From assembly GCA_003577145.1 (NCBI GenBank), contig QEUP01000017.1, positions 131,909 through 195,908 on the forward strand: a DNA stretch of 64,000 bases, given 5' to 3'. Shown here in pieces: positions 49,150-63,938 of this stretch (position 1 is its first letter; the number at the start of each line of letters is the position of its first letter). The notes under the pieces are model-generated. The model saw only the letters and a list, made by a program, of their open reading frames with translations, had not been told where the DNA came from and did not search any database. Source of the stretch: Acidobacteriota bacterium. GTDB taxonomy: Bacteria > Actinomycetota > Acidimicrobiia > Acidimicrobiales > Microtrichaceae. The position numbers were made by a program, and so were the translations under genes.

Positions 49150-50061
49150 ATGGGAGAGGTCGTCCAGGTCGTCGTCTACACACTGACCGTCGGGTCGGTG
49201 TACGCCCTGGTCGCGTTCGGCTACAGCCTCATCTTCTCGACTACCCGCATAGTCAACTTCGCGCAGGGCACGCTGGTCGTGGTCGGCGGCTACCTGGCGT
49301 GGTGGATCTACACGCAGGCCTTCGACGAAGGGCTCCCGCTCATCGTGGTGCTCTTGATGGTGGTGGTGCTGTCGGGTCTGGTGGGGCTGGTCTTCGACCT
49401 CGTGGCGGTGGCTCCGCTGGGTCGCTTCGACCCTGCCACCAACATCGCCTGGTTGGTGACCACGTTCGGAGCGGCGGTTGTGGCGCAGGAGCTGGTGGCG
49501 CGCACCATCAGCGACACCGGCCAGACGCTGCCGGCGTTGGGTTCTTCCATTCTCGGTTGGCAGGGCTCGGTCGTCGAAGACGTCGCCATCCGGCCCAGCG
49601 ACCTGGTCCTGGTGGGATCGACGCTGCTGATCTTCTTCTTCCTGGACGCGATGCAGGAGCGAACCCGGATCGGACAGGCGTTTCACGCTGTTGCCCAGGA
49701 CCGGCAGGCGGCCTCGCTCATGGGCATCAACCCCACCGCGATGGTGATCCTCAGCTTCGTCATCGCCGGCGCGCTTGCCGCGCTCAGCGGTATCCTCATC
49801 GCGCCCCGGCTGGGGGTCCGGTTCAACATCGGCCTCAATCTCGGGGTGTACGGTTTCGTCGCCGCGGTGATCGGTGGGCTGGGTTCTACACGCGGGGCGA
49901 TCCTGGGTGGGTACCTCGTCGGTCTCGTCGACGGTGTCGTTGGTGTGGCGTCCAAGCGCGCTGACAGCTGGCGGCCGCTGGCGATCTTCCTGGTCTTCGT
50001 GCTGGTCCTCACCCTGCGGCCGAGTGGTCTGCTCGGCAAGCCCGTCACGGAGAAGGTATGA
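49150..50061 (+). CDS. LivH-type ABC permease
   Basis: A 303-residue permease with about eight membrane helices. It has GSVYALVAFGYSLIFSTTRIVNFAQGTLVV near the start and MGINPTAMVILSFVIAGALAALSGIL in the EAA-like region, the pattern of LivH. Follows the binding protein by 31 bp and overlaps the next gene by 4 bp (ATGA). Confidence 0.92.
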   Translation: MGEVVQVVVYTLTVGSVYALVAFGYSLIFSTTRIVNFAQGTLVVVGGYLAWWIYTQAFDEGLPLIVVLLMVVVLSGLVGLVFDLVAVAPLGRFDPATNIAWLVTTFGAAVVAQELVARTISDTGQTLPALGSSILGWQGSVVEDVAIRPSDLVLVGSTLLIFFFLDAMQERTRIGQAFHAVAQDRQAASLMGINPTAMVILSFVIAGALAALSGILIAPRLGVRFNIGLNLGVYGFVAAVIGGLGSTRGAILGGYLVGLVDGVVGVASKRADSWRPLAIFLVFVLVLTLRPSGLLGKPVTEKV

Positions 50062-52661
50062 GACTGGATCGGCGCAACGTTGCCGCCGGTGCCCTCAGGG
50101 CCGCGCCGCTGGTGGTGTTCCTCGTCGTCGTGTTGTGGTTCGGCCAGTCCCAGGCGACGGACCGTTACTGGATGATGCTGGGGATCCAGGCCCTGTGGAT
50201 GACGGTCGCGGTCATCGGCCTCAACCTGCTCATCGGCTACACCGGCCTGCTCTCACTCGGCCATTACGCGTTCTTCCTCTACGGCGGCTTCATGGGTGCC
50301 ATCTGGGTTGTCGAGGGCTGGGGCCTCTCACCGTGGTTGGGCTTCCCTCTGGCTTTCGTGCTGGGCGCGGCGATGGGAGCGGTGCTGGCCCTCACCTGCT
50401 GTCACCTGCGCGGGTTCTACCTGACTGTTGTGACCCTGGCGTTCGGGCTGATCGCCTCCGCGGTGGCCCTGTTGTTCGAGGAACCGTTCAACGGGCTGTC
50501 CGGGCGAGGGGTGCGCCAGCCGCTGGACACCAGCTTCGGGTTCCTCGATGCCGCCAACCCCAACCGTCCGTTCGTGGGTCTGTATTGGCTCGGCGCAGCT
50601 CTGGTGCTGCTCTCGCTCTACCTCGCCTGGAACCTGGTCCGCAGTCGCTGGGGACGGGCCTACCAGGCGATCCGGGAATCCGAGCTCGCCGCCCGCACCT
50701 GCGGGGTGCCGACCTACGGCTACAAGGTGTCGGTGTTCGCGCTGTCGGCGGGGTTCGAGGCGCTGGCAGGGGTGCTGGCTGCCCAGACGAACCTGACGGT
50801 CACCATGGCCGACGGGACCGCAGTCATCGGCCAGTCGTTTCGCCAGGTGATCTACGCCTTCTTCGGTGGACTCGGTACGTTGGCCGGGCCGGTGGTCGGA
50901 TCGTTCACCTTCACGCTGGGCCTGGGGGCCGATCTGGGAGAGCAGTCGCTTACGGAGTTGCTGGGCCGCTGGGAGACGCTCTTCTTCGGTCTGTTGATCA
51001 TCCTGATAGCGGTCCTCGCACCGGCCGGGGTGGTCGGCACGGTCAAGGGCCTGCTCGGTCGCTGGCTCCCCCGCCCGGTGCTCGAGGCGAGCGCCGGAGC
51101 CGAGGGTCCTCACCCCCGGCGGACACCCGACTCCGCAGCACCGGTGATGCGGATCACCGGAGTCACCAAGACCTTCGGCGGCCTGGCTGCGCTGTCGGAT
51201 GTGTCGTTCGAGATCGCCGCGGGGTCAGTGCACGCGCTGATCGGCCCCAACGGCTCGGGCAAATCCACCCTGGCCAGCGTCCTCACGGGCGTCACGCCAT
51301 CCGACAGCGGCACCATCGCCTTCGCCGGCGGGGAGCTGGCCGGGAGGAGTGCCAGCGCCTGCGCCCGCCTGGGAGTGGCCCGGACATTCCAGACCTGCCA
51401 GATCTGGCGGCGCATGAGTGTGCTCGAGAACGTGATGGTAGGCGCCCACACCCAGACACGGACCGGTCTGCTCCGGGCCCTTCTCCTGCCGGTGTGGGTC
51501 AGGCGAGAGGAGCGGGTGACGCGACGGCGCTCGCTGGAGCTCTTGGCCTTCGTCGGGCTGGACGGGCGGGCACTCGACTCGGCCGGGGCGCTGCCCTTCG
51601 CCGATCAGCGGCGGTTGGAGATCGCCCGAGCCCTGGCTGCCGACCCGGACCTGTTGATCCTCGACGAGCCTGCCGCGGGAATGCACCCCGGCGAGGTCAA
51701 CGAGCTCAAGGAGCTCATCGAGCGCGTACGTGACGCGGGGATAACGGTGCTGCTCATAGAGCACCACATGGAGGTCGTGATGGACCTCTCCGACCGCGTG
51801 ACAGTGCTCAACTACGGCGAGAGGATCGCCGAGGGGACGCCGGCTGAGGTTGCCGCCGACCCGGTGGTGGTGGAGGCCTACCTCGGGGCTGCCGACCGTG
51901 AGCCGGTCTCGCGGGTGGTTGGCAGGTCAGGCGTGCAGAACCGGCCGCCGCTGTTGGAGGTCCGGAACCTGCAGGTGCAATACGGCGCCGCAACAGCCTT
52001 GTCCGGCGTGAGCTTCGACGTGTACGAGGGGGAGGTGGTGGCGCTGATCGGCGCCAACGGTGCCGGCAAGACCACCACTCTCAAGGCCGTCTCCGGCGTC
52101 AGCGAGCTCCTCAAGTCTGTGCGGGGGGAGGTCAGCTTCGCCGGAAAGCGCATCGAGCGCTGGCCGGCCTATCGCATAGTGCGCGCGGGCATGGCGCACG
52201 TTCCCGAAGGCCGGCGGGTGTTCCCCGACTCGACGGTGGAAGAGAACCTGCGTCTCGGGGGCTATCGACGCGACCCGGGGGAGGTGGCTACGTCCATCTC
52301 GCAGGCTTACGAGCGCTTCCCGGTCCTCGCAGACCGGCGAGACCAGGATGCGGGCCTGCTGTCGGGCGGTGAGCAGCAGATGCTGGCGATCGCCAGAGCG
52401 CTGATCAGCCGTCCACGATTCCTGCTTCTCGACGAGCCCTCCCTGGGCCTCGCACCCACCGTCGTCGACCAGGTCTTCGAGACAGTTCGCTCTCTCGCCG
52501 GCGAAGGGGTCACCATCCTGCTCGTGGAGCAACTGGCGCACCAGGCGCTTGCCCTGGCTGATCGTGGCTACATCCTCGAGACCGGCGCCATCGTCATCGG
52601 GGGTCCCGCCACTGAGCTGGCCGCGGACCCGGTGATTCAGTCGACCTACCTCGGCGGGTGA
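50058..52661 (+). CDS. Fused LivM-LivG-LivF: ABC permease with two ATPase domains
   Basis: One 867-residue polypeptide carries what are usually three subunits. Residues 1-335 are a LivM permease (GLNLLIGYTGLLSLGHYAFF). Residues about 357-600 are a LivG ATPase with Walker A GPNGSGKST near 396, a degenerate signature LPFADQRRLEIARAL and LLILDEPAAGMHPGE. Residues about 630-867 are a LivF ATPase with Walker A GANGAGKTT near 664, signature LSGGEQQMLAIARAL and LLLDEPSLGLAP. No frameshift or start separates them. With the binding protein and LivH this makes a complete importer from three genes. LivM-LivG fusions are known; the triple fusion is rarer. Confidence 0.93.
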   Translation: MRLDRRNVAAGALRAAPLVVFLVVVLWFGQSQATDRYWMMLGIQALWMTVAVIGLNLLIGYTGLLSLGHYAFFLYGGFMGAIWVVEGWGLSPWLGFPLAFVLGAAMGAVLALTCCHLRGFYLTVVTLAFGLIASAVALLFEEPFNGLSGRGVRQPLDTSFGFLDAANPNRPFVGLYWLGAALVLLSLYLAWNLVRSRWGRAYQAIRESELAARTCGVPTYGYKVSVFALSAGFEALAGVLAAQTNLTVTMADGTAVIGQSFRQVIYAFFGGLGTLAGPVVGSFTFTLGLGADLGEQSLTELLGRWETLFFGLLIILIAVLAPAGVVGTVKGLLGRWLPRPVLEASAGAEGPHPRRTPDSAAPVMRITGVTKTFGGLAALSDVSFEIAAGSVHALIGPNGSGKSTLASVLTGVTPSDSGTIAFAGGELAGRSASACARLGVARTFQTCQIWRRMSVLENVMVGAHTQTRTGLLRALLLPVWVRREERVTRRRSLELLAFVGLDGRALDSAGALPFADQRRLEIARALAADPDLLILDEPAAGMHPGEVNELKELIERVRDAGITVLLIEHHMEVVMDLSDRVTVLNYGERIAEGTPAEVAADPVVVEAYLGAADREPVSRVVGRSGVQNRPPLLEVRNLQVQYGAATALSGVSFDVYEGEVVALIGANGAGKTTTLKAVSGVSELLKSVRGEVSFAGKRIERWPAYRIVRAGMAHVPEGRRVFPDSTVEENLRLGGYRRDPGEVATSISQAYERFPVLADRRDQDAGLLSGGEQQMLAIARALISRPRFLLLDEPSLGLAPTVVDQVFETVRSLAGEGVTILLVEQLAHQALALADRGYILETGAIVIGGPATELAADPVIQSTYLGG

Positions 52662-52824: not shown

Positions 52825-55596
52825 CTAATCGGGCACGGCCAAGCGGCGGTCCGGATCGAGGACGCTCGCCAGGTCTTCTCGGCTCGATATCCCGAGTTTC
52901 TCGTAAGTGCGCTGGAGGTGGTTGTCCACTGTGCGGGTCGAGAGGCTCAGCCGGCGCGCGATGATCTTGCTCGCAAGCCCCCTCGCTGCGAGGGAGGCGA
53001 CCTGGCGTTCACGACGCGTGAGGTCAGGCGGCACCCCTGCCATGTCCAGCATCGGGGTCTGGGCGCCCTCGCAGCACGAGAGCAGCGCCCGTGAGCGCTG
53101 GCAGAACGCCGTCGCGGCCCTCGGCTCACCGGCCCGTATCGCCATTGCGGAAGCCGCGGCAGCCGTCTCTGCCGCGTAGAGCAGCGCTCCCATGGCCTCG
53201 AAATCAACCGACGCAGCATCGAGCTCGAGCCAGTCTTCATCTGATACAGCTACTGCAAGTGCCAGCCGCGCCGAGCCAAGCGGGCCGTCGAGACGGGTGG
53301 CTGTACGCCTCAATCCTTGCGCCGCGCCGTCATCGAGGGTCAGGCGGAGCAGGTCGTGCCAGGCTGCGGCAGCCAGTGACCAAGCGCCGACCACCTCTGC
53401 GGTATCGATAGCTCGTTCGAGCATGCGGCGCGCCTCGTCAGGATCGCCTTGGACATGCGCCGCCCAGGCGCGGGCTCTCCACACGTCTGGTTCCATCATC
53501 CCCATCGGTGAGGGCGAGAGCTCATCCAGATCCGCAAGTGCTGCCATTGCGGCCGAGCGGTCCCCCTGGAGGGCGGTTGCCAGGATCTGGCCGGCTGCAC
53601 ACCAACGTCTGAGCCCCCGTTGCCCGAGGTCGGCGAAAGCCAGCCCACCTTCAGTGAAGGACCGCTTGGCTGCATCGAGCTTGCCCTCGACCAGCGCGAG
53701 TCGCCCGATGAGGAGTGCGAACCAGGCCTGGCCCAGTTTCGTGTCGGTCGCAACGGCGAAGTCATACCCCATCCTCGCGGTTTCGGCGCTCTCTTCGAGT
53801 CGCCCGGACTCACAATGGGCGAGGACGCGGGATACGACGTGGATCCCCGCGTGACTCATGACTTCCTGTTCACCGAGTCGGAGGTGCACTTCCAGCCCGC
53901 GCTCGGCCACTGAAAGAGCTTCGTCGTACCGGCCCATCACCGCGAGTGCGGGTGCGGCGGCGACGGCCGCTCCCGCGGTGGCTCGGTCATCCTCCGGGCG
54001 GTTGAAGACCGGCAGCGCCAGCTCCAATGCGGCGGGGAAGCGCCCACAGAGCATCTCGAAGGTAGCGCGGTGAGCCCGGACCTCATCCCGCCATGGCCCC
54101 CGCTGGAGCTGCGTCTCGGTCGCGCAAAGAGTCGCAAGAGCGTCGTTGGCCCGGTCGAGACCCATGAAGAGGGCGAGCGCGTGCTCCATGGCTACCAGCG
54201 CGCGCTCTTCTTCAGATGCGGTGATCTGGGCGAGCTGCTTGGCGATCGTGTCTCGCTCGCGGTGACGGCCGAGGTCACCGAGGACCTGGGTGAGCACCAG
54301 CCCCGCCCGTACGCTCGGTTCGATCTGGAAGGCTACGCCGGCCAGGCGTTCGGCGAGCGTCAGGTCGTGGGTGAAGAAGGCTGTTCGTGCGGCCTCCACC
54401 ATTGCGGCGGCGTCGGCGGCACCGCCTCCCTCGAGTCGCCAGAGGGCAACCCGGAACAGATCTTCGCACCGCCCTGCACCGGTCGCTTCTGTGGCGTCGG
54501 CGAGGCGACGGTTGAGGTTCAGGGCCCGCAGACCGGTCAGTGATTCTCTCAGCACATCTCCGTGTATCGGATGATCGAGGCGGACCTCGCTTCGCCGGCC
54601 GTTGAGCGCGACGTGGGCGAGCTGGTGACGTTCGAGCGCCTCGATCGTCTCGGGGTCGACCAGGTTGGTCAGTACCGCCAGCGGGACGGGTTCACCCACG
54701 GCGAGCAGCTCGAGCGCGTCCCGTTCGGTGGGCAACAGATCAGCGAGACGTGCCTCTACCAACTCCTGCAAGCGGGGAGTGCTGGCCAGCTTGTCGCTGA
54801 GACGCCACACGCCGTCGACTTGGCGCAGCACTCCCGCGTCGATCGCGCCGGCCAGGAGCTCGCGAAGGAACAAGGGGTTGCCTTGGCTGGCACACCAGAG
54901 CTGTTGCCTCGTTCCGCCGTCGATGTGGCCACCGAGTGCCTCCTCCAGGAGCTGCCCGACGACCGCGCGAGAAAGGGGGCGAAGATCGATGCGCCGCGCT
55001 AGCCCGTCCTTCCAGAGGCTACGGGCGGCAGCGGGTACGAGCCCGCCGGTACGGACGGTGGCGATGATGAAAACACCCTTGCTTCCTGCCAACTGGTGGA
55101 TGACGGTGGCCGTGGCGTCATCGAGGAACTGCGCGTCATCCACTACGAGCGCCAGCGCTTGGTCCTCGTCGTCCCGCAGCGAGCGTGCGGCCCACTCGAG
55201 CAGGTCCCCTCGCAGCTCCACCTGATCCTCGATCGGGGGCAACAGTGGTGCGAGTGCACCGAGCGGTATGCCCGTCGAGGACCTGGTCGCCAGCACCGTG
55301 GCGGATCGGAAGCCACGTTCGGTCGCAAGGCGGGCGGCCTCCATGGCAAGGCGGGTCTTGCCGACGCCTGCTCCGCCGGCCAGCACGACGCCGCCGACAT
55401 TGCGGTCGTCGATGGCCGCGACGATGACCTCGAGCTCGTCGACCCGACCGACAAGCGGCCAAGCCGACAGGATCATTCCCTTCACTGAGTTCGAGGGTAC
55501 GTGGATACGATCCGAAATCGGTGCCAGTGCGTTGCGCTCTTGCCCGAGCACGCCCAGCAGTTGACGAATTCCGCCGCCACGTGCCGCCGCGACCAC
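52825..55596 (-). CDS. Large LuxR-family ATP-binding regulator (LAL type)
   Basis: A 923-residue regulator. The N-terminal AAA/STAND ATPase has Walker A GGAGVGKTRLA near residue 74 and Walker B ALALVVDDAQFLDD. A long helical, TPR-like middle part follows. The C-terminal LuxR HTH at about 860-915 reads LTRRERQVASLAARGLASK then RRLSLSTRTVDNHLQRTYEKLG. GTG 55596 has AGGAGG 7 nt upstream, which decides the start. A 19-bp palindrome lies 70 nt before it, the same motif as before the propeller genes, so it probably controls itself and them. Such regulators respond to ligands or protein partners (maltose for MalT); the signal here is unknown. Confidence 0.9.
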   Translation of the reverse strand: MVAAARGGGIRQLLGVLGQERNALAPISDRIHVPSNSVKGMILSAWPLVGRVDELEVIVAAIDDRNVGGVVLAGGAGVGKTRLAMEAARLATERGFRSATVLATRSSTGIPLGALAPLLPPIEDQVELRGDLLEWAARSLRDDEDQALALVVDDAQFLDDATATVIHQLAGSKGVFIIATVRTGGLVPAAARSLWKDGLARRIDLRPLSRAVVGQLLEEALGGHIDGGTRQQLWCASQGNPLFLRELLAGAIDAGVLRQVDGVWRLSDKLASTPRLQELVEARLADLLPTERDALELLAVGEPVPLAVLTNLVDPETIEALERHQLAHVALNGRRSEVRLDHPIHGDVLRESLTGLRALNLNRRLADATEATGAGRCEDLFRVALWRLEGGGAADAAAMVEAARTAFFTHDLTLAERLAGVAFQIEPSVRAGLVLTQVLGDLGRHRERDTIAKQLAQITASEEERALVAMEHALALFMGLDRANDALATLCATETQLQRGPWRDEVRAHRATFEMLCGRFPAALELALPVFNRPEDDRATAGAAVAAAPALAVMGRYDEALSVAERGLEVHLRLGEQEVMSHAGIHVVSRVLAHCESGRLEESAETARMGYDFAVATDTKLGQAWFALLIGRLALVEGKLDAAKRSFTEGGLAFADLGQRGLRRWCAAGQILATALQGDRSAAMAALADLDELSPSPMGMMEPDVWRARAWAAHVQGDPDEARRMLERAIDTAEVVGAWSLAAAAWHDLLRLTLDDGAAQGLRRTATRLDGPLGSARLALAVAVSDEDWLELDAASVDFEAMGALLYAAETAAAASAMAIRAGEPRAATAFCQRSRALLSCCEGAQTPMLDMAGVPPDLTRRERQVASLAARGLASKIIARRLSLSTRTVDNHLQRTYEKLGISSREDLASVLDPDRRLAVPD

Positions 55597-55639
55597 CTCA
55601 TATCCTCCTGCCCGGCCCCGCCTGTCGCCTCGGTAAGGA

Positions 55640-55685
55640 AAGGTACGGGCTCGAAGAGCCGGTGTCCTGAGTAGCGATTACTCAG
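55640..55685 (-). promoter_or_regulatory. lux-box-like palindrome and promoter of the LuxR-family gene
   Basis: On the minus strand CTGAGTAATCGCTACTCAG (55667-55685) has perfect 7-bp arms around ATCGC. Exactly 21 nt downstream is TACCTT (55640-55645), a weak -10. The palindrome centre is then near -43, where a LuxR-type activator touches RNA polymerase. It lies 70 nt before the LuxR-family GTG. Confidence 0.65.
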
Positions 55686-55737
55686 TTGGCCCTGGGCTAG
55701 GTGTGCGACCGCCTATCGAGGTTGTGAAAGTCTCACG

Positions 55738-57333
55738 TCAGGGGGCGACACGTTGGGCCCACACCTCGAAGTCGTCGTCTACCAGGGTTCCGCTCTTGGT
55801 GTCACCAGCCCACGCGACGAGGTAGCCGGGGGTGGTGGTGCTCGACCCGGATGCGACCGCGGGCTTGTAAGCGTCGAAGTTGGCGTCGCCGTTGGGCTTC
55901 ATCGAGGAGATGTGGAAGTCATCCGGCCCGACGGCCAAAGCCTTACCGCCCGTGACCGATACAGCTTGCCCGTAGATCTCGAACTCGTCGTTGACCCAGG
56001 GCGCCGTCTCTTCGTCGCCCTGGAAGGTGACGAGGAACTGCTTTGCGCCCACGTTGTAGGCAACGTCGGCAGCCGTTAGCTCGTGATCGGCCGGGGCATC
56101 AGCGCCAAACTGGGAGACAGGGATCATCGAGCCCGCAGGCTTGCCGGCGGAAGCGCCGGATGCGTACAGCGCCTGGCCCCAGATGTCGCTGTTGCCGCTG
56201 ATGCCGCCCAACAAGTTGTGGTCCCCGTCCCAGACGACGAGGTACCTCCCGGCGCTGGGGTCGAGCGCGACCGCCGGCCGGAGCGCTTCGTAAGACTGTT
56301 GGGCTGGGCCGGCGTCGGGCCCGACGTGTGAGATCCGGTAGTCATCGGCACCGATCTGTGTCCCCACGCTGCCGGGATTGGCGGAGAGCCGCTGACCCAG
56401 GATCTCGTATTCGTCGTCTTTCATCCCGTTGGCGTTGTCATCGGCGGTGAACACCACCAGGTACTCGCCGGCCGAGGCGTTGTAGACGAGATCGGGCACC
56501 CCGGTGTCATACTTCGGGTCTCCGTCGGGGCCCACGTTGGAGATCCGGGTGTCCATGCCGATCTCGCTGCCGGTTGCGGACACCCGTTGGTAGAAGATCT
56601 CGTATTCGTCGACGGCCTTGCCGCTGTAGGTATCCCCCTGCCAGACCACCAGGTACTCGTTGAGTTTGGTGTTGTAGGCGACCGAGGGATAGGTGGCGCT
56701 GAATGGGTCGTCTTGCGCAGGCATCTGGGAGATCCGGAAGTCGTCGGGCCCGACCTCGGCACCGCTCAGGGAGATTCGCTGGCCGAAGACCTCGACTTCG
56801 CCCTGGGACATGCCCGGGAGGTTGTCGTTCCCGGCCCAGACGACGAGGAACTCCCGCGCCGCGGAGTTGTAGGTGACCGCCGGGAAGAGGGCGCCGTAGT
56901 CGTTGCTTCCGTCGGGCCCGACCTGGGAGATGCGGAAATCGCCGCCTATCGGGCTGCCGGCACCGTCCAGGAACTGGCCCCAGATCTCGAGCCCCGTCTT
57001 GGCGAAGATCGGCGTCTTCTCGTCGGAGGTCCACACGACTAGGTACCGGTTGGCATCGGGGCTGTGGGCGATCGCAACGGTGTGTGTAAACCATCCCGCG
57101 GGGGGACCGTATCCGGGGGTGCCTTCAGGCCCCATCTCCGAGACGCGGACCGGGTTCCCGACCGGCAATGCCCCCGCGATCTGCGGGGCTGCCACCTGGC
57201 ACAGCAATGTCATGGCGAGGGAGGCGACGGCCGCCGTGGCCGTCACCCTCCCCCGACCTCGGCGCCACCCAGTGCGTCCCCGGCTGGGTCGCCTCAGCAG
57301 CGTCTCGTTGGTTCCCGCCTGCGCCGTGCGCAT
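55738..57333 (-). CDS. Secreted seven-repeat protein, predicted beta-propeller (copy A)
   Basis: A 531-residue exported protein: twin-Arg-rich basic start, hydrophobic segment (AVASLAMTLLCQVAAPQIAGA) and cleavage near residue 55. The rest consists of seven repeats of about 65-70 residues following the pattern P-x-V-x-Y-N...YLVVWxGD...EIxGQRVS..G...G..DFRIS. The last repeat stops after QRVAP, and the missing outer strand (NPVRVSEMGPEG) is at the N-terminus, the velcro closure of a seven-bladed beta-propeller. No catalytic motif is seen; binding of a ligand, glycan or surface is plausible. Own palindrome and promoter upstream. Fold is inferred. Confidence 0.78.
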   Translation of the reverse strand: MRTAQAGTNETLLRRPSRGRTGWRRGRGRVTATAAVASLAMTLLCQVAAPQIAGALPVGNPVRVSEMGPEGTPGYGPPAGWFTHTVAIAHSPDANRYLVVWTSDEKTPIFAKTGLEIWGQFLDGAGSPIGGDFRISQVGPDGSNDYGALFPAVTYNSAAREFLVVWAGNDNLPGMSQGEVEVFGQRISLSGAEVGPDDFRISQMPAQDDPFSATYPSVAYNTKLNEYLVVWQGDTYSGKAVDEYEIFYQRVSATGSEIGMDTRISNVGPDGDPKYDTGVPDLVYNASAGEYLVVFTADDNANGMKDDEYEILGQRLSANPGSVGTQIGADDYRISHVGPDAGPAQQSYEALRPAVALDPSAGRYLVVWDGDHNLLGGISGNSDIWGQALYASGASAGKPAGSMIPVSQFGADAPADHELTAADVAYNVGAKQFLVTFQGDEETAPWVNDEFEIYGQAVSVTGGKALAVGPDDFHISSMKPNGDANFDAYKPAVASGSSTTTPGYLVAWAGDTKSGTLVDDDFEVWAQRVAP

Positions 57334-57374
57334 CGCTTACCCTCCCGTTCCGCCCGCCATGGGGCGCCAATGCG

Positions 57375-57420
57375 ATTGTGCATGCTCGTGAGCGGGCTGG
57401 CCTGAGCAGCGATTGCTCAG
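57375..57420 (-). promoter_or_regulatory. lux-box-like palindrome and promoter of propeller gene A
   Basis: Minus strand CTGAGCAATCGCTGCTCAG (57402-57420), perfect 7-bp arms, followed exactly 21 nt later by CACAAT (57375-57380), a -10-like hexamer. It lies 68 nt before the ATG at 57333. Same motif and same geometry as the sites at 55667 and 60422. Confidence 0.68.
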
Positions 57421-57446
57421 GTCGTCAGTTGTGGGGGCGCCCGGGC

Positions 57447-58895
57447 TCACGGCGCCACCAACCCGGCCCAGATCTCGGTGTCCGAGGTCTCGTCGTTCTC
57501 AGTCCCCGTCCATATGGCCAGGTACAGGTTCTGTTGCGACCCGTAGGCGACAGAGGGAAAGTAGTCGACGTAGTCAACGTCGCTCGAGATCAAAGAGTCG
57601 TCCAAGCCGATAGGCTGGCCCGCCGAGTTCGTCGCGTGGCCGTAGATGGCCGGTAGTTCGAAACTGTCAGCTATTGCGGCGTAGACGACGAGGTGCTGCT
57701 TGCCGGCGGCGTTGTAGGTCACGTCGGGATGAACTGCCTTATTCTCAGGGCCTGGTTGAGAGAGCTGTGTGGGGGGCCCTGCGGCCTTGCCCACCCACCA
57801 CATGGACCACCAGTTGAAGCTCGCGTACAGCGCCTGCGCCCAGACCGCGCTGTCCTTTGCGCTGTTGACGATCGGCGAGTCAGCCCACACGACGAGGTAG
57901 CGCAGCTCTGTCGGGTCGAAGGACACTGCTGGGGTGACAGCGCTGTTTTCGGTGGTGGGGTCGGGGGTGACGTAGGTGACGCGCTTGTCGGTGCCGATCT
58001 CGGCGCCGGCGTTGGCCGGGCCGGCGCCGAGACGTTGGCTGAAGATCTCCGTGCCATATGCCGCCCCGCCGTCGGTCGCGCTCCAGACCACGAAGTACTC
58101 ATCGACCACCCGGTTGTGCACCACGTCGGGCGTGAGGGCTTGGTATGCCGTGTCGCCGTAGGGCCCGGTGGTGGAGATCCTCGCCTCGGGAGCCTTCTCG
58201 ACACCAGTCGCTGACAGTCGCTGGGCGTAGATCTCCGTTTCCGGAGAGCCGACGCCGAGCAGCACACGGTCGCCTTGCCAGACCACGAGGTACTCGTTGA
58301 GATCCGAGTTGTAGGCGACGGACGGATACACGGCGTCTTGGGAAGGGTTTCCGCCGGCCCCCTGGTTGGAGATCCGGAAGTCCTGCACGCCTGGTTGGGC
58401 GCCGGCCAGCGACACCCGCTGGCCGAAGATCTCCATTTCGCCCTTGGCCATCCCCGGCTGGTCGTCGTCGGCGGCCCACACGACGAGGAACTCCTTGGCC
58501 TGGCTGTTGTAGGCGACCGCAGGTGAGGTGGCGTAGTAATTGGAGTCGTTCGGGGTGCCCATCTCGGAGATGCGGAACTCATTGGTCACGGGAACCCCCG
58601 AGCCGGTGTAGAGCTTGCCCCATACCTCATCGGTGCTGTCCCCGCCGGGGGAGTCGTCATTGGCGGCCCACACGACGAGGAAACGATCAGTGACGGCGTC
58701 GGTGTAGGCCACGGCACTCTGACGCGGGTACAGGTCGACCTCTTGGAATATGCTCCCGGGTGGCCCTACCTGTGACACCTGGAATTGTGGGCCGACCGGG
58801 CCCGCGCCGGCCGGGCCCCCGAGCCCCAGCAGCGACACCACCAATGCCGCCGCCACACCTGCCTTCAGCGATCCCCGTCTTCTGCTCGTGCTCAT
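57447..58895 (-). CDS. Secreted seven-repeat protein, predicted beta-propeller (copy B)
   Basis: A 482-residue paralogue of copies A and C. Signal peptide (SLKAGVAAALVVSLLGLGGP) with cleavage around AGA, then N-terminal strand QFQVSQVGPPG and seven blades with EFLVVWAADDDQPG, EYLVVWQGDRVLLG, YFVVWSATDGG and so on, ending in AGLVAP. It is very close to copy C in amino acids and DNA; one run of at least 67 bp is identical (57926-57992 and 59391-59457). It begins 41 bp after the end of copy C with no palindrome between, so it is probably co-transcribed with C. Blade 5 holds an odd WWSMWW insertion. Confidence 0.78.
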   Translation of the reverse strand: MSTSRRRGSLKAGVAAALVVSLLGLGGPAGAGPVGPQFQVSQVGPPGSIFQEVDLYPRQSAVAYTDAVTDRFLVVWAANDDSPGGDSTDEVWGKLYTGSGVPVTNEFRISEMGTPNDSNYYATSPAVAYNSQAKEFLVVWAADDDQPGMAKGEMEIFGQRVSLAGAQPGVQDFRISNQGAGGNPSQDAVYPSVAYNSDLNEYLVVWQGDRVLLGVGSPETEIYAQRLSATGVEKAPEARISTTGPYGDTAYQALTPDVVHNRVVDEYFVVWSATDGGAAYGTEIFSQRLGAGPANAGAEIGTDKRVTYVTPDPTTENSAVTPAVSFDPTELRYLVVWADSPIVNSAKDSAVWAQALYASFNWWSMWWVGKAAGPPTQLSQPGPENKAVHPDVTYNAAGKQHLVVYAAIADSFELPAIYGHATNSAGQPIGLDDSLISSDVDYVDYFPSVAYGSQQNLYLAIWTGTENDETSDTEIWAGLVAP

Positions 58896-58935
58896 CGCTC
58901 CAGCCCTTCCTCGTCAGTTGTGCGGGCGCCCTGGC

Positions 58936-60360
58936 TCACGGCGCCACCTTCCGGGCCCAGATCTCGAAGTAGGTCTCCTCGTCGAACGCCCCCGTCCATA
59001 TCGCCAGGTACTGGTTCGGCTTCGACCCGTAGGCGACAGAGGGATAGATGGCGAAGGGCATGGTCGAGATGGCGAAGTCGTCCGCGCCGGTGGGCTCGCC
59101 CGAGGAGTTCGTTGCTTGGCCGTAGACAGCCGGTTGCTCGCCCTTCTCTTGTGCGGCGAAGACGACGAGGTGCTGCTTGGCGGCGGCGTTGTAGACCACG
59201 TCGGGAACCGTTGCGATACCGCCCGGGCCTGTTTGTGAGAGCTGTGTCGGCGGCCCTGCGGCCTTGCCCGCCCACCAGTTGGAGTTCGCGTGCAGTGCCT
59301 GCGCCCAGACCTCGCTGTCCTCCGCTCCGTTGACGACCCGCGAGTCACCCCACACGACGAGATAGCGCAGCTCTGTCGGGTCGAAAGAGACTGCTGGGGT
59401 GACAGCGCTGTTTTCGGTGGTGGGGTCGGGGGTGACGTAGGTGACGCGCTTGTCGGTACCGATCTCGGTGCCGGCGTTGGCCGGGCCCGCACCCAGGCGT
59501 TGGCTGAAGATCTCCGTGCCATATGTCGCACCGCCGTCGGTCGCGCTCCAGACCACGAAGTACTCGTCGACCACCGGGTTGTGAACCACGTCGGGCATGA
59601 CGGCTTGGTATGCCGTGTCGCCGTAGGGCCCGGTGGTGGAGATCCTCGCCTCGGGAGCCTTCTCGCCGCCGGTCGCCGACAGCCGCTGGGCGTAGATCTC
59701 CTCTTCCGGAGCGCCGGATCGGAGCAGCACACGGTCGCCTTGCCACACGACGAGGTACTCGTTGAGATCCGAGTTGTAGGCGACGGACGGGAACAGGGCG
59801 TCCTGGGAAGGGTCTCCGCCGGCGCCCTGTTTGGAGATCCTGAAGTCCTGCACGCCTGGTTGGGCACCGGCCGGCGACACCCGCTGGCCGAAGATCTCCA
59901 GCTCGCCCAGGGCCATCCCCGGCTGGTCGTCATTGGCGGCCCACACGACGAGGAACTCCTTGGCCTGGCTGTTGTATGCGACCGCAGGCGAACTGACGAG
60001 GTAGTCGTCGTCGTTCGGGGCGCCCATCTCGGAGATGCGGAACTCGTTGGTCACGGGACTACCGGAGCCGGTGTAGAGCCGGCCCCACACCTCATAAGTG
60101 CTGTCCCCCCCGGGGAAGTTGTCTTGAGCGGCCCACACGACGAGGTACCGATCGGTCGCAGCGTCGGTGTAGGCCACCGCACTCTCCCGAAACCACGGGA
60201 GGATAATGGCGGATGGGCTTCCGGGCGGCCCGACCTGTGACACCTGGAATTGCGGGCCGACCGGGCCCGCGCCGGCCGGGCTCCCGAGCCCCAGCAGCGA
60301 CACCACCAATGCTGCCGCCACGGCCGCCTTCAACCATCCCTGTTCTGTGCTCGTGGTCAT
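58936..60360 (-). CDS. Secreted seven-repeat protein, predicted beta-propeller (copy C)
   Basis: A 474-residue protein from ATG 60360 (MTTSTEQGWLKAAVAAAL), the start that aligns with copy B; the open frame continues to 60423 but would run over the promoter. It has a signal peptide, the N-terminal strand QFQVSQVGPPG and seven blades with the YLVVWxGD and EIxxQRLS patterns, ending in ARKVAP. No Cys-rich or catalytic motif. First gene of the C-B transcription unit. GGGAGAG directly precedes the ATG. Confidence 0.78.
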   Translation of the reverse strand: MTTSTEQGWLKAAVAAALVVSLLGLGSPAGAGPVGPQFQVSQVGPPGSPSAIILPWFRESAVAYTDAATDRYLVVWAAQDNFPGGDSTYEVWGRLYTGSGSPVTNEFRISEMGAPNDDDYLVSSPAVAYNSQAKEFLVVWAANDDQPGMALGELEIFGQRVSPAGAQPGVQDFRISKQGAGGDPSQDALFPSVAYNSDLNEYLVVWQGDRVLLRSGAPEEEIYAQRLSATGGEKAPEARISTTGPYGDTAYQAVMPDVVHNPVVDEYFVVWSATDGGATYGTEIFSQRLGAGPANAGTEIGTDKRVTYVTPDPTTENSAVTPAVSFDPTELRYLVVWGDSRVVNGAEDSEVWAQALHANSNWWAGKAAGPPTQLSQTGPGGIATVPDVVYNAAAKQHLVVFAAQEKGEQPAVYGQATNSSGEPTGADDFAISTMPFAIYPSVAYGSKPNQYLAIWTGAFDEETYFEIWARKVAP

Positions 60361-60394
60361 CTCTCCCGCCCCGCTCGATCTTCCGCCGACACGG

Positions 60395-60440
60395 ATTGTG
60401 GCGAGCGGAGCGCCGGATGTCATGAGTAGTGATTGCTCAG
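60395..60440 (-). promoter_or_regulatory. lux-box-like palindrome and promoter of propeller genes C-B
   Basis: Minus strand CTGAGCAATCACTACTCAT (60422-60440), arms matching at five of seven pairs, followed exactly 21 nt later by CACAAT (60395-60400), the same hexamer at the same distance as at gene A. It lies 61 nt before the copy C ATG and 46 bp after the end of the SARP-type gene. Confidence 0.65.
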
Positions 60441-60485
60441 CCGCGCTCCTTCAGATCGCGGAGGCCAAACTCATGTTCCTCCGGT

Positions 60486-63400
60486 CTATGCAGTTACCGG
60501 GGGCGCCGCGTAGCGGGTCAGGACCGAGCGCATCCCCAGGCGTGTAGCCAACGCCAAGCCGCTGCGGGCGAGGTCCTCGATGCGCTTGGCGTCGCCTCCG
60601 ATCGAGGTCAGCCAGCTCGCGTAGGCGAGCCGGTCGCGTGCGAGGAACGGCCGGGCACCGAGACGCTCGTGCAGCGACATGGCGGCCTCGAAGTGCATGG
60701 ACGCACGCACGCTGTTGCCGAGCAGCGCGCCCAGTGGGCCCAGGAACCGGTGGATCGAGCCCCAGCAAAGCGCGCCCTCGCCGGCGACGATCACTCGTGA
60801 ACCATGGGGTGCCAGCAGCTCGTAGAGAGCACCGGCAGCCTCACGGTCCTCCAGGGACTCGACCGCTGTTGCCGCGGCGCCCAGCGCGAGGAAGTACAGC
60901 TCGTCGCGGGGGATGGTCTCGAAATGGGTGCTGGTGAAGGGGTGCAACACAGCGGCCGCTCGCTCCGGTTCGCCCAACTCAACCAGCAGCACGCCGTGGC
61001 CGATCGACCAGGCGGGATGGGAGCTCCCTGTGGCCCACGCTTCGACCCCGTCACGCACCTCCTCCAGGCGTCCCTGCTCGTGGCGTGAGGCGAAGAGCTG
61101 AACGGCCAGCCCCTCCAAGAACTCCGGGGTCGGTTCCAGGGCGACAGCCTGGCGGGCTCGCGCTTCAGCTTCGGCGAAGCGACCAGCCAGCAGCGCGCGC
61201 ATGGCTCGTCGTTGCTCGACGCCGGCCATGTAGCGAGGGATGTGCACAACGCGAACCAGCTCCTCGTACTCGCGCCCCACCTCGTCGGAGGCGGCAGGTT
61301 CGGCTGCGGCGAGGTAGGCGCGGCGCAGGTTGCTCAGTGCTTCGACCAGCTCGAAGGCGTCACCCGTCTCGCGTGCTGCCGAGAGGCAGGATCGGGCCAG
61401 GTCGACGACGCGCTCGACCGGGCTCGTAGCCCCTATGACTGCCAAGCAGTACTCGATTACCGTTCGCCGATCGACAGGCCCGAGCGTCGCGGTCCTCGCC
61501 AGTGCCCACTCGGCCAGTCGCAGGGCTCTATCACCTGGCTCGCCGGAGAACGCGTGGGAGGCGATCGCCGTGAGAACTACTCGCAAAGGCGAGGCCTCGT
61601 CGAGCTGTTGCCTGACCAACTCGGCTCGCGTAGGCCATGGTTCGGCCGCGTAGAGGGTACCTGCGAAGCTCTCCACCACCACCTCGGCGAGAAGCGTGGC
61701 CTCACCGCCGTCGGTGGCCAGAGCCCACGCCTGTTCGAGCAGCGGTCCTCGCTCGCGGTAGTTCCCCGAGTGCCTGAGCGTGCCCGCGAGCGCCACCGCG
61801 ACCCGGCACACCGTCGACGGCTCCGCTGCCGGATGGCTCGCGAGAGCCTCATGTGCAGTGCGCAGGATGGCGACGGCGTCGTCATAGGTGTAACGCTTCA
61901 CCGCCTGCCTCGCGGCGACGAGAGCGGCCTCCACGCCCGGAGCGATGTCGCTTTGGTCGGCGGCCGCGGCGAGGAGGTGCCGGGCCACTGCGCCCTCGGC
62001 CCCACCGAGCTCGGCTAGGGCGTTGCCGAACCGGCGGTGCACTCGGGCGCGTCGGGCGGCGCCGAGCCCGTCGCGTAGCACCGTTTGTATCAACGCGTGG
62101 GAGAAGCCGTAGACGCCCGCCTGGCCAGGGTGCTCGTGTACGACTCCAGCCAGCGCCGCCATAGCGAGGGCGTCGTCGGCGACATCGATCTCCACCGCTG
62201 CGGCGCGCGCGACGACTTCGAGACGGAACTCCGGTCCGGCGACGGCTGCGACGCCGAGGAGGCGCCGAGCTTGTTCGGGAAGGCGCAACATCCGGCGGGC
62301 GATCGTGTCGCGCACCGAATCGGGAACCGCGCCCGCCTCGAGCTCGCCGCCGCTCTCGGTCACGTGGCGCGCCAGTTCCTCGATGTAGAAGGGATTGCCT
62401 TCGGTCAGCTCGTAGAAGTCCGAGACGGTCGGGTCGACACCTCGCTCGGCGACCAGGGTCCGCACCTCCGGGGGGCTCAGGCCCTCGAGCTTGACGCGGT
62501 CGAGTCGCCGATCTCGTTGGAGGTCCGCGACGAGCGCCAGCAACTCCTCGTTCGGCTCGGTGTCACGCGTGGTGCCGAGGACGAGCAACGGACCCCGCTC
62601 GTCGTCCCGGAGCAGGTGCGCCAAGAGCTGGAGTGAGGGGGGAGTGGCCCACTGCAGATCGTCGAGCACCAGCACGACAGGGTGACGAAGCCGGGTCGTG
62701 TCGAGAAGGCTGCTGATGGCCCGGAACAAAGCGTAGCGGTGGGCCTGGGCGTCCACCGCCGGCAGCAGGGCCGGACTCTGCGATAGCTCGGGTACCAGCG
62801 CTGCCAGCACGGCGAGGTCGCCCGGCGCGTCACGTTCCAGCCGGTCCCGCTGAGCGATGATCAGACGGTCCAGAGCCTCGCCAAAGGGCTGTAGCACGTG
62901 CAGCGGTTCCTGCACGCATCGTCCGCCCAGAACGAGCGCCCCAGTCGGGTGGAGCTGCTCCGTTGTCTCACGTACCAGCCGTGACTTGCCGATTCCCGGC
63001 TCGCCGACGATCAGAGCCAGGCGTCGCTCACCGCTGACGGTGCGGCCAAACGACGCATGCACGGCATCAAGCTCCGTGTTGCGACCCACGAAGGTGTCAC
63101 CCGGAGTACGGAGCCAGGCAGGTGGCGCAACGTCGGCAGCCGCGACCGGCGTTGGCGTCGAGTGCATCTGGCGGGGAGCGAGGTCGGCTTCCTGGCGCAG
63201 TATGGCGCTTTCGAGCATGCACAGCGCAGGGCCGGGTTCGATGCCCAGCTCGCTCACGAGGAGGGTTCGAACTTCCTGGAAGCGACGCAGCGCTTCGGAT
63301 TGTCGACCGCTGCGATACAGCGCCAGCAACAGCAGCTCCCAGCACCGCTCACGCAGAGGGTGCGCAGCTACCAGAGTTTCGAGGTCGGCTACAGCCCGTC

Positions 63401-63938
63401 CATGGTCCCCCAGCGCCAGAGCCGCCTCGGCGCGTTCCTCTGAGGCAAGCACGCGCAGCTCTTCGAGGCGGCTCACTTCGGTCCCGAAGAGGATGGGGTC
63501 CTTGAAGTCGGCCAGCACCGGCCCTCGCCATTCGTCGAGAGCGTGCCCGAGCAGCTCGTCGGCATGCTCGGGGTCGTCGTCGGCGAGCGCGGTCCGACCT
63601 CGTGATGCAAGCCGTTCGAAGCGGTGGGCGTCGAGCTCGTCCTCGCCGAGGTGCAACACGTAGGCGTCGCCTCGGGTGGAGAGCCGAGCCGAAGGGGCGC
63701 GTGGTGGGCGCTCCGGTTCCAGGGCTCGGCGTAGCCGCGAGACGTGGCTCTGCACCGCCGCCTCCCATTTGGCGGGCGGCCCGGTGGGCCAGAGCACCTC
63801 GGCCAGCCGGGCACTGCTGACAGGAGAGTCGGGCTGTAGTGCAAGGACCGCGAAGAGCGTGCGGGCCTGGCGGAGCCCGAGTTCGACGGCCCCTCGGGCG
63901 TCGCTGACCTCGAGTGATCCCAGGATCCTCACGTCCAT
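60486..63938 (-). CDS. AfsR/SARP-type transcriptional regulator with ATPase domain
   Basis: A 1150-residue regulator. Residues 1-95 are an OmpR-like winged helix (MDVRILGSLEVSDARGAVEL). About 100-245 are the bacterial transcriptional activator domain (LGIEPGPALCMLESAILRQE). From about 283 comes an AAA/STAND ATPase with FVGRNTELDAV, Walker A GEPGIGKSRL near 314 and Walker B VVLVLDDLQWATPP, then a long helical TPR-like tail. This layout is that of AfsR-like activators of Streptomyces. It ends 46 bp before the copy C palindrome, suggesting it helps control the propeller genes; its targets are unknown. Complete ATG start at 63938; its promoter lies mostly outside the window. Confidence 0.9.
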   Translation of the reverse strand: MDVRILGSLEVSDARGAVELGLRQARTLFAVLALQPDSPVSSARLAEVLWPTGPPAKWEAAVQSHVSRLRRALEPERPPRAPSARLSTRGDAYVLHLGEDELDAHRFERLASRGRTALADDDPEHADELLGHALDEWRGPVLADFKDPILFGTEVSRLEELRVLASEERAEAALALGDHGRAVADLETLVAAHPLRERCWELLLLALYRSGRQSEALRRFQEVRTLLVSELGIEPGPALCMLESAILRQEADLAPRQMHSTPTPVAAADVAPPAWLRTPGDTFVGRNTELDAVHASFGRTVSGERRLALIVGEPGIGKSRLVRETTEQLHPTGALVLGGRCVQEPLHVLQPFGEALDRLIIAQRDRLERDAPGDLAVLAALVPELSQSPALLPAVDAQAHRYALFRAISSLLDTTRLRHPVVLVLDDLQWATPPSLQLLAHLLRDDERGPLLVLGTTRDTEPNEELLALVADLQRDRRLDRVKLEGLSPPEVRTLVAERGVDPTVSDFYELTEGNPFYIEELARHVTESGGELEAGAVPDSVRDTIARRMLRLPEQARRLLGVAAVAGPEFRLEVVARAAAVEIDVADDALAMAALAGVVHEHPGQAGVYGFSHALIQTVLRDGLGAARRARVHRRFGNALAELGGAEGAVARHLLAAAADQSDIAPGVEAALVAARQAVKRYTYDDAVAILRTAHEALASHPAAEPSTVCRVAVALAGTLRHSGNYRERGPLLEQAWALATDGGEATLLAEVVVESFAGTLYAAEPWPTRAELVRQQLDEASPLRVVLTAIASHAFSGEPGDRALRLAEWALARTATLGPVDRRTVIEYCLAVIGATSPVERVVDLARSCLSAARETGDAFELVEALSNLRRAYLAAAEPAASDEVGREYEELVRVVHIPRYMAGVEQRRAMRALLAGRFAEAEARARQAVALEPTPEFLEGLAVQLFASRHEQGRLEEVRDGVEAWATGSSHPAWSIGHGVLLVELGEPERAAAVLHPFTSTHFETIPRDELYFLALGAAATAVESLEDREAAGALYELLAPHGSRVIVAGEGALCWGSIHRFLGPLGALLGNSVRASMHFEAAMSLHERLGARPFLARDRLAYASWLTSIGGDAKRIEDLARSGLALATRLGMRSVLTRYAAPPVTA

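Follow-up and report, generated by a model that had tools for sequence, protein, structure and literature searches.

A LuxR-type STAND regulator and its apparent regulon of secreted propeller proteins in an acidimicrobial genome, linked by a near-exact palindromic operator

The closest described relatives of the system treated here are the large LAL (MalT-type) regulators of Streptomyces, such as SCO6993, SCO0877, and PikD, which are described as proteins with an N-terminal ATPase bearing a Walker A motif and a C-terminal LuxR helix-turn-helix (HTH), and as controlling antibiotics or the phosphate response (PMC9628970; PMC3282765). SCO6993 is reported to bind palindromes, including one at its own promoter, and the authors of that study were unable to predict a consensus site (PMC9628970). 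Here we describe a stretch of 64,000 nucleotides (“the window”) from contig QEUP01000017.1 of a genome of the Microtrichaceae (class Acidimicrobiia), in which a regulator of this build, the LuxR-STAND protein encoded by luxR, lies beside genes for secreted predicted beta-propellers. In contrast to those reports on Streptomyces, this locus combines a near-exact palindrome, a fixed spacing to a −10-like hexamer, and secreted propellers as the apparent output. Both regulator classes found at the locus are known; the operator, the promoter layout, and the regulon look new, and in the open-licence PMC literature we found no paper linking the operator, LAL proteins, and this class.

The operator is a 17-mer palindrome with the consensus TGAGYA-N5-TRCTCA. 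In the window, the pattern TGAGYAATCRCTRCTCA occurs exactly at 55668–55684, 57403–57419, and 60423–60439, before luxR, propA, and propC, far more than chance would supply: shuffled sequence, even when searched at ≤3 mismatches, averages 0.23 sites and never exceeds 2. Computed over the whole genome (4.05 Mb), there are only four exact operators, each preceding luxR or a propeller transcription unit; the fourth lies 60 bp before propD, a fourth paralogue (53% identical to propA) on contig C34 that is unlinked to the window and has no regulator beside it, making the set wider than the window. One further genomic site carries two mismatches, which we take to be chance level because the backwards pattern gives 3 matches at ≤2 mismatches; as backwards patterns also match once mismatches are allowed, we used exact sites only. 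Exact copies of the operator thus stand before luxR and before all propeller transcription units known in the genome. Shared operator sites had been proposed for the cluster; three are indeed exact in the window, while propB has no site of its own and none precedes the SARP gene at the upstream end. The five genes, taken from the open reading frames of the 64-kb window, all lie on the minus strand at the positions originally given, and together with their promoter elements are as follows:

52825..55596, minus strand: luxR, LuxR-type STAND/LAL regulator, 923 amino acids (aa), GTG start (open reading frame, GerE, AAA_16)
55640..55645, minus strand: −10-like hexamer TACCTT of luxR, 22 bp past the luxR operator
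55668..55684, minus strand: operator TGAGTAATCGCTACTCA upstream of luxR, exact pattern match, read as putative autoregulation
55738..57333, minus strand: propA, predicted secreted (signal-like N-terminus) seven-bladed propeller, 531 aa (open reading frame, repeats, AlphaFold2 model)
57375..57380, minus strand: −10-like hexamer CACAAT of propA, placed by its spacing from the operator
57403..57419, minus strand: operator TGAGCAATCGCTGCTCA upstream of propA, exact pattern match
57447..58895, minus strand: propB, predicted secreted seven-repeat paralogue, 482 aa (open reading frame and repeats; sequence only)
58936..60360, minus strand: propC, predicted secreted propeller, 474 aa, with 60360 as the better start (open reading frame, AlphaFold2 model)
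60395..60400, minus strand: −10-like hexamer CACAAT of propC, placed by its spacing from the operator
60423..60439, minus strand: operator TGAGCAATCACTACTCA upstream of the propC-propB pair, exact pattern match
60486..63938, minus strand: SARP-type STAND regulator, 1150 aa (Pfam domains), a neighbour assigned to a separate module

The propB gene follows 40 bp behind propC, lacks an operator of its own, and is probably co-transcribed with propC.

All four sites in this genome share a further feature: a hexamer whose second base is A and whose sixth is T starts exactly 22 bp past the palindrome (CACAAT three times and TACCTT once, with 3–4 of 6 matches to the −10 consensus). The operator together with the spaced −10 is found without mismatch at the same four places and at no other in the genome; allowing one mismatch adds a place on contig C50 and the backwards readings of three of these four sites, with 3 matches for the backwards control. 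We then surveyed the class (296 genomes, own included; numbers such as G086 denote genomes of the class) and found the hexamer at offset 22 in 22 of 35 oriented readings; among offsets 8 to 49, no other one had more than 3. The pattern had first been seen in five sites (four here and one in G086) and was then counted; without those discovery sites, the figure is 17 of 30. Eight of the 43 listed readings were omitted from the count, either because their direction was unclear or because the site had already been read the other way; the G003 site was counted in both directions, and the G074 site was entered in the direction that does not fit, while the opposite one does. Divided by downstream gene, the hexamer was present in 9/14 readings toward genes with a signal-like start, 10/15 toward others, and 3/6 toward luxR.

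The luxR product has the build of an LAL protein: 923 aa, an N-terminal ATPase with a visible Walker A motif (GGAGVGKTRL), and a C-terminal LuxR HTH. Against Pfam, GerE is matched at residues 859–912 (55.5 bits, cut-off 23.5; E 4.5e-15) and AAA_16 at E 3.7e-6, with 28.0 bits lying below the cut-off of 32.6; the match to the NCBIfam model AbsR2 (NF050132) is partial (212.9 of 850 bits), and the protein is not that equivalog. Alignment of homologues begins at residue 41 (MILSAWPLVGR, ~55476). The protein is the sole LuxR-STAND match in its own genome at E ≤ 1e-15.

Operator and regulator are linked well beyond this locus. Within the class, 27 genomes contain TGAGTA-N5-TACTCA, 43 have a LuxR match at E ≤ 1e-40, and 15 have both; with the own genome excluded, 14 of the 26 palindrome genomes fall among the 42 LuxR-match genomes (n = 295, Fisher p 5e-7). 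In five genomes, exact palindromes lie no more than ~260 bp from a LuxR homologue: G060 and G086 have two each, one on either side of the homologue, and G109, G213, and G235 have theirs beside it. When flanks of 430 bp were scored for at least 10 of 12 half-site matches, 19/94 flanks at LuxR genes carried a site versus 4/1103 control windows taken from the same stretches (18/92 versus 2/959 for the 46 homologues outside the own genome); this test covered 47 of the 58 LuxR matches, the 11 left out being second or partial copies or low-ranked. When one site per genome was read in both directions, the +22 hexamer was present in 10 of the 14 genomes that have a LuxR match but in just 1 of the 12 that have none. 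Because the palindrome adjoins LuxR homologues and the 22-bp spacing recurs in other genomes, it is very probable that the LuxR protein is the one that uses this operator. Were another transcription factor to read the palindrome, with luxR merely one of its targets, one would expect sites far from any LuxR homologue, and such sites do occur, 12 of the 27 palindrome genomes having no LuxR match at E ≤ 1e-40; in those 12, however, the hexamer fails at all but one tested site, many sites in one family have a different form, TGAGTACTCAGTACTCA, and the flanks that carry a site are concentrated at LuxR genes in several families, so that we hold this explanation to be very improbable. At two further loci, L163 (G306b) and L149 (G122b), LuxR homologues carry matched variant palindromes of TACGTA- and TCAGTA-type on both sides, a pattern that looks like joint change of operator and HTH.

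In each of the four promoters here, the last base of the palindrome is the first base of the −35 hexamer (ATGACA, ATGACT, AGGACA, and AGGCCA, with 5, 4, 4, and 3 of 6 matches), which would centre the operator near −43, an activator position. LuxR-type class II activators sit overlapping the −35 region, and it is these activators, and seldom repressors, that need a fixed base-pair distance to the −10. We therefore consider it likely, on the strength of these sequence patterns, that the LuxR-STAND protein is an ATP-dependent activator, acting through the palindrome on its own gene and on a regulon of secreted propellers. On a signal, it would bind TGAGYA-N5-TRCTCA as a dimer, centred ~43 bp before the transcription start and touching the −35 box, and would recruit RNA polymerase to the −10 box placed exactly 22 bp from the palindrome. 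Four promoters have the full layout—luxR, propA, propC-propB, and, on the other contig, propD—and the outcome would be a self-reinforcing burst of propeller proteins whose most likely role, once exported, would be extracellular binding of a lectin-like or adhesive kind. The suggestion that a large regulator has secreted propellers as its apparent regulon is well supported by the genome-wide operator count, the spacing, and the flank linkage. The same regulon might be run with the opposite sign, the LuxR-STAND protein repressing at the −35 region and releasing on the signal. A repressor could equally act where the palindrome ends on the first −35 base, some of the −35 hexamers at these promoters are fair matches (3–5 of 6; NGAC follows the site in 19/35 readings), and the LAL protein SCO6993 is reported to repress (PMC9628970). 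Repression is nonetheless distinctly unlikely in our estimation, given a site that lies upstream of the −35 at a distance to the −10 fixed to the base pair, −10 matches of 3–4 of 6 here, and −35 matches ranging from 0 to 5 of 6 over the 35 readings.

The second regulator at the locus appears to belong elsewhere. The SARP-LAL protein PimR is reported to recognize CGGCAAG heptamers arranged as direct repeats with 4-bp spacers (PMC5930380). Like PimR, the neighbour of the propeller genes joins SARP and ATPase domains, with Trans_reg_C (28.0 bits), BTAD (156.6 bits), and AAA_16 (109.3 bits) all above their Pfam cut-offs, the domain set of a SARP-LAL; its match to the NCBIfam model AfsR (NF053617) is partial (158.5 of 1430 bits), and it is not that equivalog. 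Unlike PimR, it faces not an antibiotic cluster but a giant secreted gene, whose product in this genome contains a G8 domain in a domain scan:

L012:3984-6545, beginning at the window equivalent of ~64075, plus strand: giant secreted gene, divergent from the SARP gene, running off the contig

Orthologues of the SARP protein occur in G080 (64% identity) and G069 (63%), which share a genus and belong to this class but to a different order. There too (L191 and L190, respectively) the gene stands opposite one for a giant secreted protein that opens similarly. The intergenic region between the SARP and giant genes holds an 11-bp direct repeat, CCGCAAG-TGAA-CCGCAAG, with TCGCAAG repeats in G069 and G080, so that YCGCAAG heptamers in direct repeat with 4-bp spacers, as at PimR sites, stand at what would be the promoter of the target. 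The CCGCAAG repeat occurs once in the genome at ≤1 mismatch, at the window equivalent of 64007–64023 (the backwards control gives 3 matches at ≤1 mismatch), and SARP-type repeats are absent from the window at ≤3 mismatches. On account of the synteny with the giant gene and of repeats found only there, the most fitting view of the SARP gene is that of an independent second switch, one that serves the giant secreted protein and merely chances to lie upstream; it appears not to control the propellers.

The original prediction had placed a LuxR STAND protein, three secreted seven-repeat proteins, and an AfsR-type STAND protein together on one strand, which the open reading frames and Pfam domains bear out, and had joined them into one module in which the SARP and LuxR proteins would control the propellers jointly. 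Their adjacency on the same strand favours such a module, and the propC operator starts 46 bp past the SARP stop codon, making read-through from the SARP gene possible. Yet no operator precedes the SARP gene, the probable SARP operator lies at the giant gene and not at the propellers, and G069 and G080, whose SARP orthologues keep the giant gene, have no propeller match at E ≤ 1e-20; joint control is accordingly an option to which we give very little credence, and we rejected the single module on the operator and synteny evidence. The SARP protein was also dismissed as the reader of the palindrome, there being no site before its gene and the palindromes going with LuxR homologues.

The products of propA, propB, and propC each contain seven copies of an LVVW-type repeat behind an N-terminal signal-like stretch, and neither Pfam nor NCBIfam yields a family match above its cut-off; propB and propC are 79% identical, and propA is 45–46% identical to each. 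Fold modelling with AlphaFold2 covered propA and propC, two of the three proteins for which propellers had been predicted. From a six-row alignment, the propA model has 28 strands, or seven times four, and its N-terminal strand (56–65) completes blade 7, as had been anticipated (predicted local distance difference test, pLDDT, 71.8; predicted template-modelling score, pTM, 0.79). The propC model is of the same kind (pLDDT 75.9, pTM 0.83), with some outer strands too short for DSSP to list, and both are thus predicted seven-bladed, ring-closed propellers. Their top match among solved structures is the CylK propeller (propA: Z 33.9 over 359 residues at 3.0 Å; propC: Z 35.7 over 356 residues at 3.1 Å), followed by YncE (Z ~33) and then WD40 proteins, and sialidases head the Foldseek list. 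The propC matches also include a run of PLL/PHL-type lectins at Z 27–30 and 14–17% identity; these Photorhabdus lectins resemble the propC model in fold and give no sequence match to the propellers by phmmer or profile at E ≤ 5. When solved structures were searched by sequence, propA had no match, and both propC and a six-row profile had only weak, chance-like ones.

What the propellers do is a matter on which the fold is suggestive at best: a shared propeller fold is no proof of function, the PLL/PHL run is a lead only, and lectin-like or adhesive binding outside the cell is our guess from the models. They might instead be enzymes (CylK- or glycosidase-like) or parts of a nutrient-capture system, an alternative that concerns the last step only and overlaps the other readings. 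The best fold matches, CylK and YncE, and the sialidases at the head of the Foldseek list speak for it; on the other side, many unrelated propellers score Z 27–30, the PLL/PHL lectins show the highest, if low, residue identity among 50 propC rows, and no enzyme family was recognised in the sequences, leaving an enzymatic or uptake role somewhat doubtful. A plasmid origin of the propellers was rejected, tblastn with propA giving no match in a plasmid collection, and phage families yielded a single weak match, to propB (E 0.028).

Relatives of the propellers are few. None of the 32 other genomes searched in the family has a propA match at E ≤ 0.001, one of 28 in the order does (G038; E 2.7e-30, 40% over ~280 residues), and in the class the propeller profile has matches at E ≤ 1e-20 in 8 of 296 genomes, one of them the own genome, with five propeller genes each in G112 and G274 and three in G295; a scan of a collection of genome contigs returned three distant relatives only. 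There is no exact palindrome anywhere in G038, G112, G124, G274, or G295, while G287 and G299 carry palindromes on contigs other than those of their propeller genes, and only one of the seven other propeller genomes, G038, has a LuxR match (E ≤ 1e-40), 11 kb from the propeller. Because the relatives are few and lack the operator in the stretches opened, this distribution argues for propeller gain by transfer or for repeated loss, with recruitment under the LuxR operator in this lineage; on these same findings we rejected propeller–LuxR synteny as the conserved unit. Scattered genes without linkage, named at the outset as grounds for abandoning the idea, are half borne out: the propeller relatives are scattered, whereas regulator and operator stay linked, with other outputs. 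The loci L055, L056, L057, and L059 (G112, G274) contain scattered LVVW-repeat propeller genes without operator in genomes of small size, G112 having five such genes in 2.4 Mb. At L053:7829-13666 (G038), three similar proteins of 170–174 aa, which by eye resemble phage tail-collar proteins, directly precede a 1415-aa LVVW-repeat secreted protein.

To describe the genes behind the operator in other genomes, we called genes with a simple script (long open frames with GC bias) and judged “secreted” from a signal-like N-terminus by eye and hydrophobicity. G086 has five sites, of which the four not before luxR all precede secreted-type genes. Two of these encode related proteins (321 and 328 aa), the third a 1114-aa protein without Pfam match that its repeats suggest to be a beta-helix, and the fourth a 1214-aa protein in which DUF5650 matches ten times and an HYR domain is present. 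In G235, the site beside luxR precedes the gene of a secreted protein that combines Calx-beta with RCC1 propeller repeats, and sites in G003, G066, G150, G213, G109, and G118 stand before other proteins with signal-like N-termini. By these calls, secreted output is frequent, not the rule. Five genomes (G212, G305, G287, G299, and G329) contain 3–9 palindromes each, and many of these read TGAGTACTCAGTACTCA, which seems to be a different element; one site (L068) has a MarR-like gene as its neighbour.

Several of these results weigh against a LuxR-STAND activator of secreted proteins. At the promoters, 13 of 35 readings lack the +22 hexamer, including three of the six toward luxR itself, and it is absent at the G235 RCC1 gene and at secreted genes of G086 (one), G066, G150, and G213. 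At the regulators, 33 of 47 LuxR genes have no 10/12 site in either flank, among them the close homologues in G199, G118, G122a, both G244 copies, and G195 (G199, G118, and G122 carry sites elsewhere in the genome), and the 12 of 27 palindrome genomes lacking a LuxR match at E ≤ 1e-40 count here as well. Among the outputs, sites in G118, G122, G199, G240, G213, and G003 precede small signal-less proteins, many starting with MGxFKD or similar, and the 8 stretches opened from six of the seven other propeller genomes (none from G295) contain no operator. The two propeller models, finally, are of modest confidence (pLDDT 72 and 76 from six-row alignments).

A broader reading, which we offer tentatively as a possibility rather than an expectation, is that a class-wide LuxR-STAND clade with its own promoter grammar (TGAGTA-N5-TACTCA, −10 at +22) may serve as a plug-in switch whose output is swapped: LVVW propellers here, RCC1-propeller/Calx-beta proteins in G235, and DUF5650-repeat/HYR and beta-helix proteins in G086. 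If true, this would amount to a general on-demand system for the surface repertoire, an envelope counterpart of the LAL switches of antibiotic clusters. A near-exact operator and promoter layout across the class would make regulons readable from sequence alone, and the proposed regulon would connect an LAL-type regulator with secreted proteins of a binding type rather than with antibiotics, give a handle on STAND sensing, and offer a testable role for a propeller family out of reach of Pfam models.

Two minor observations concern neighbouring material. Small proteins of the MGxFKD kind stand behind the palindrome in several families of the class (L062:5848-6330, L129:3699-4130, L138:3433-3861, L140:3425-3862, and others). 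In the window itself, a plus-strand frame of 867 aa at 50058–52661 looks, on reading its sequence, like a fusion of LivM, LivG, and LivF, a permease and two ATP-binding cassette (ABC) ATPases for branched-chain amino acids.

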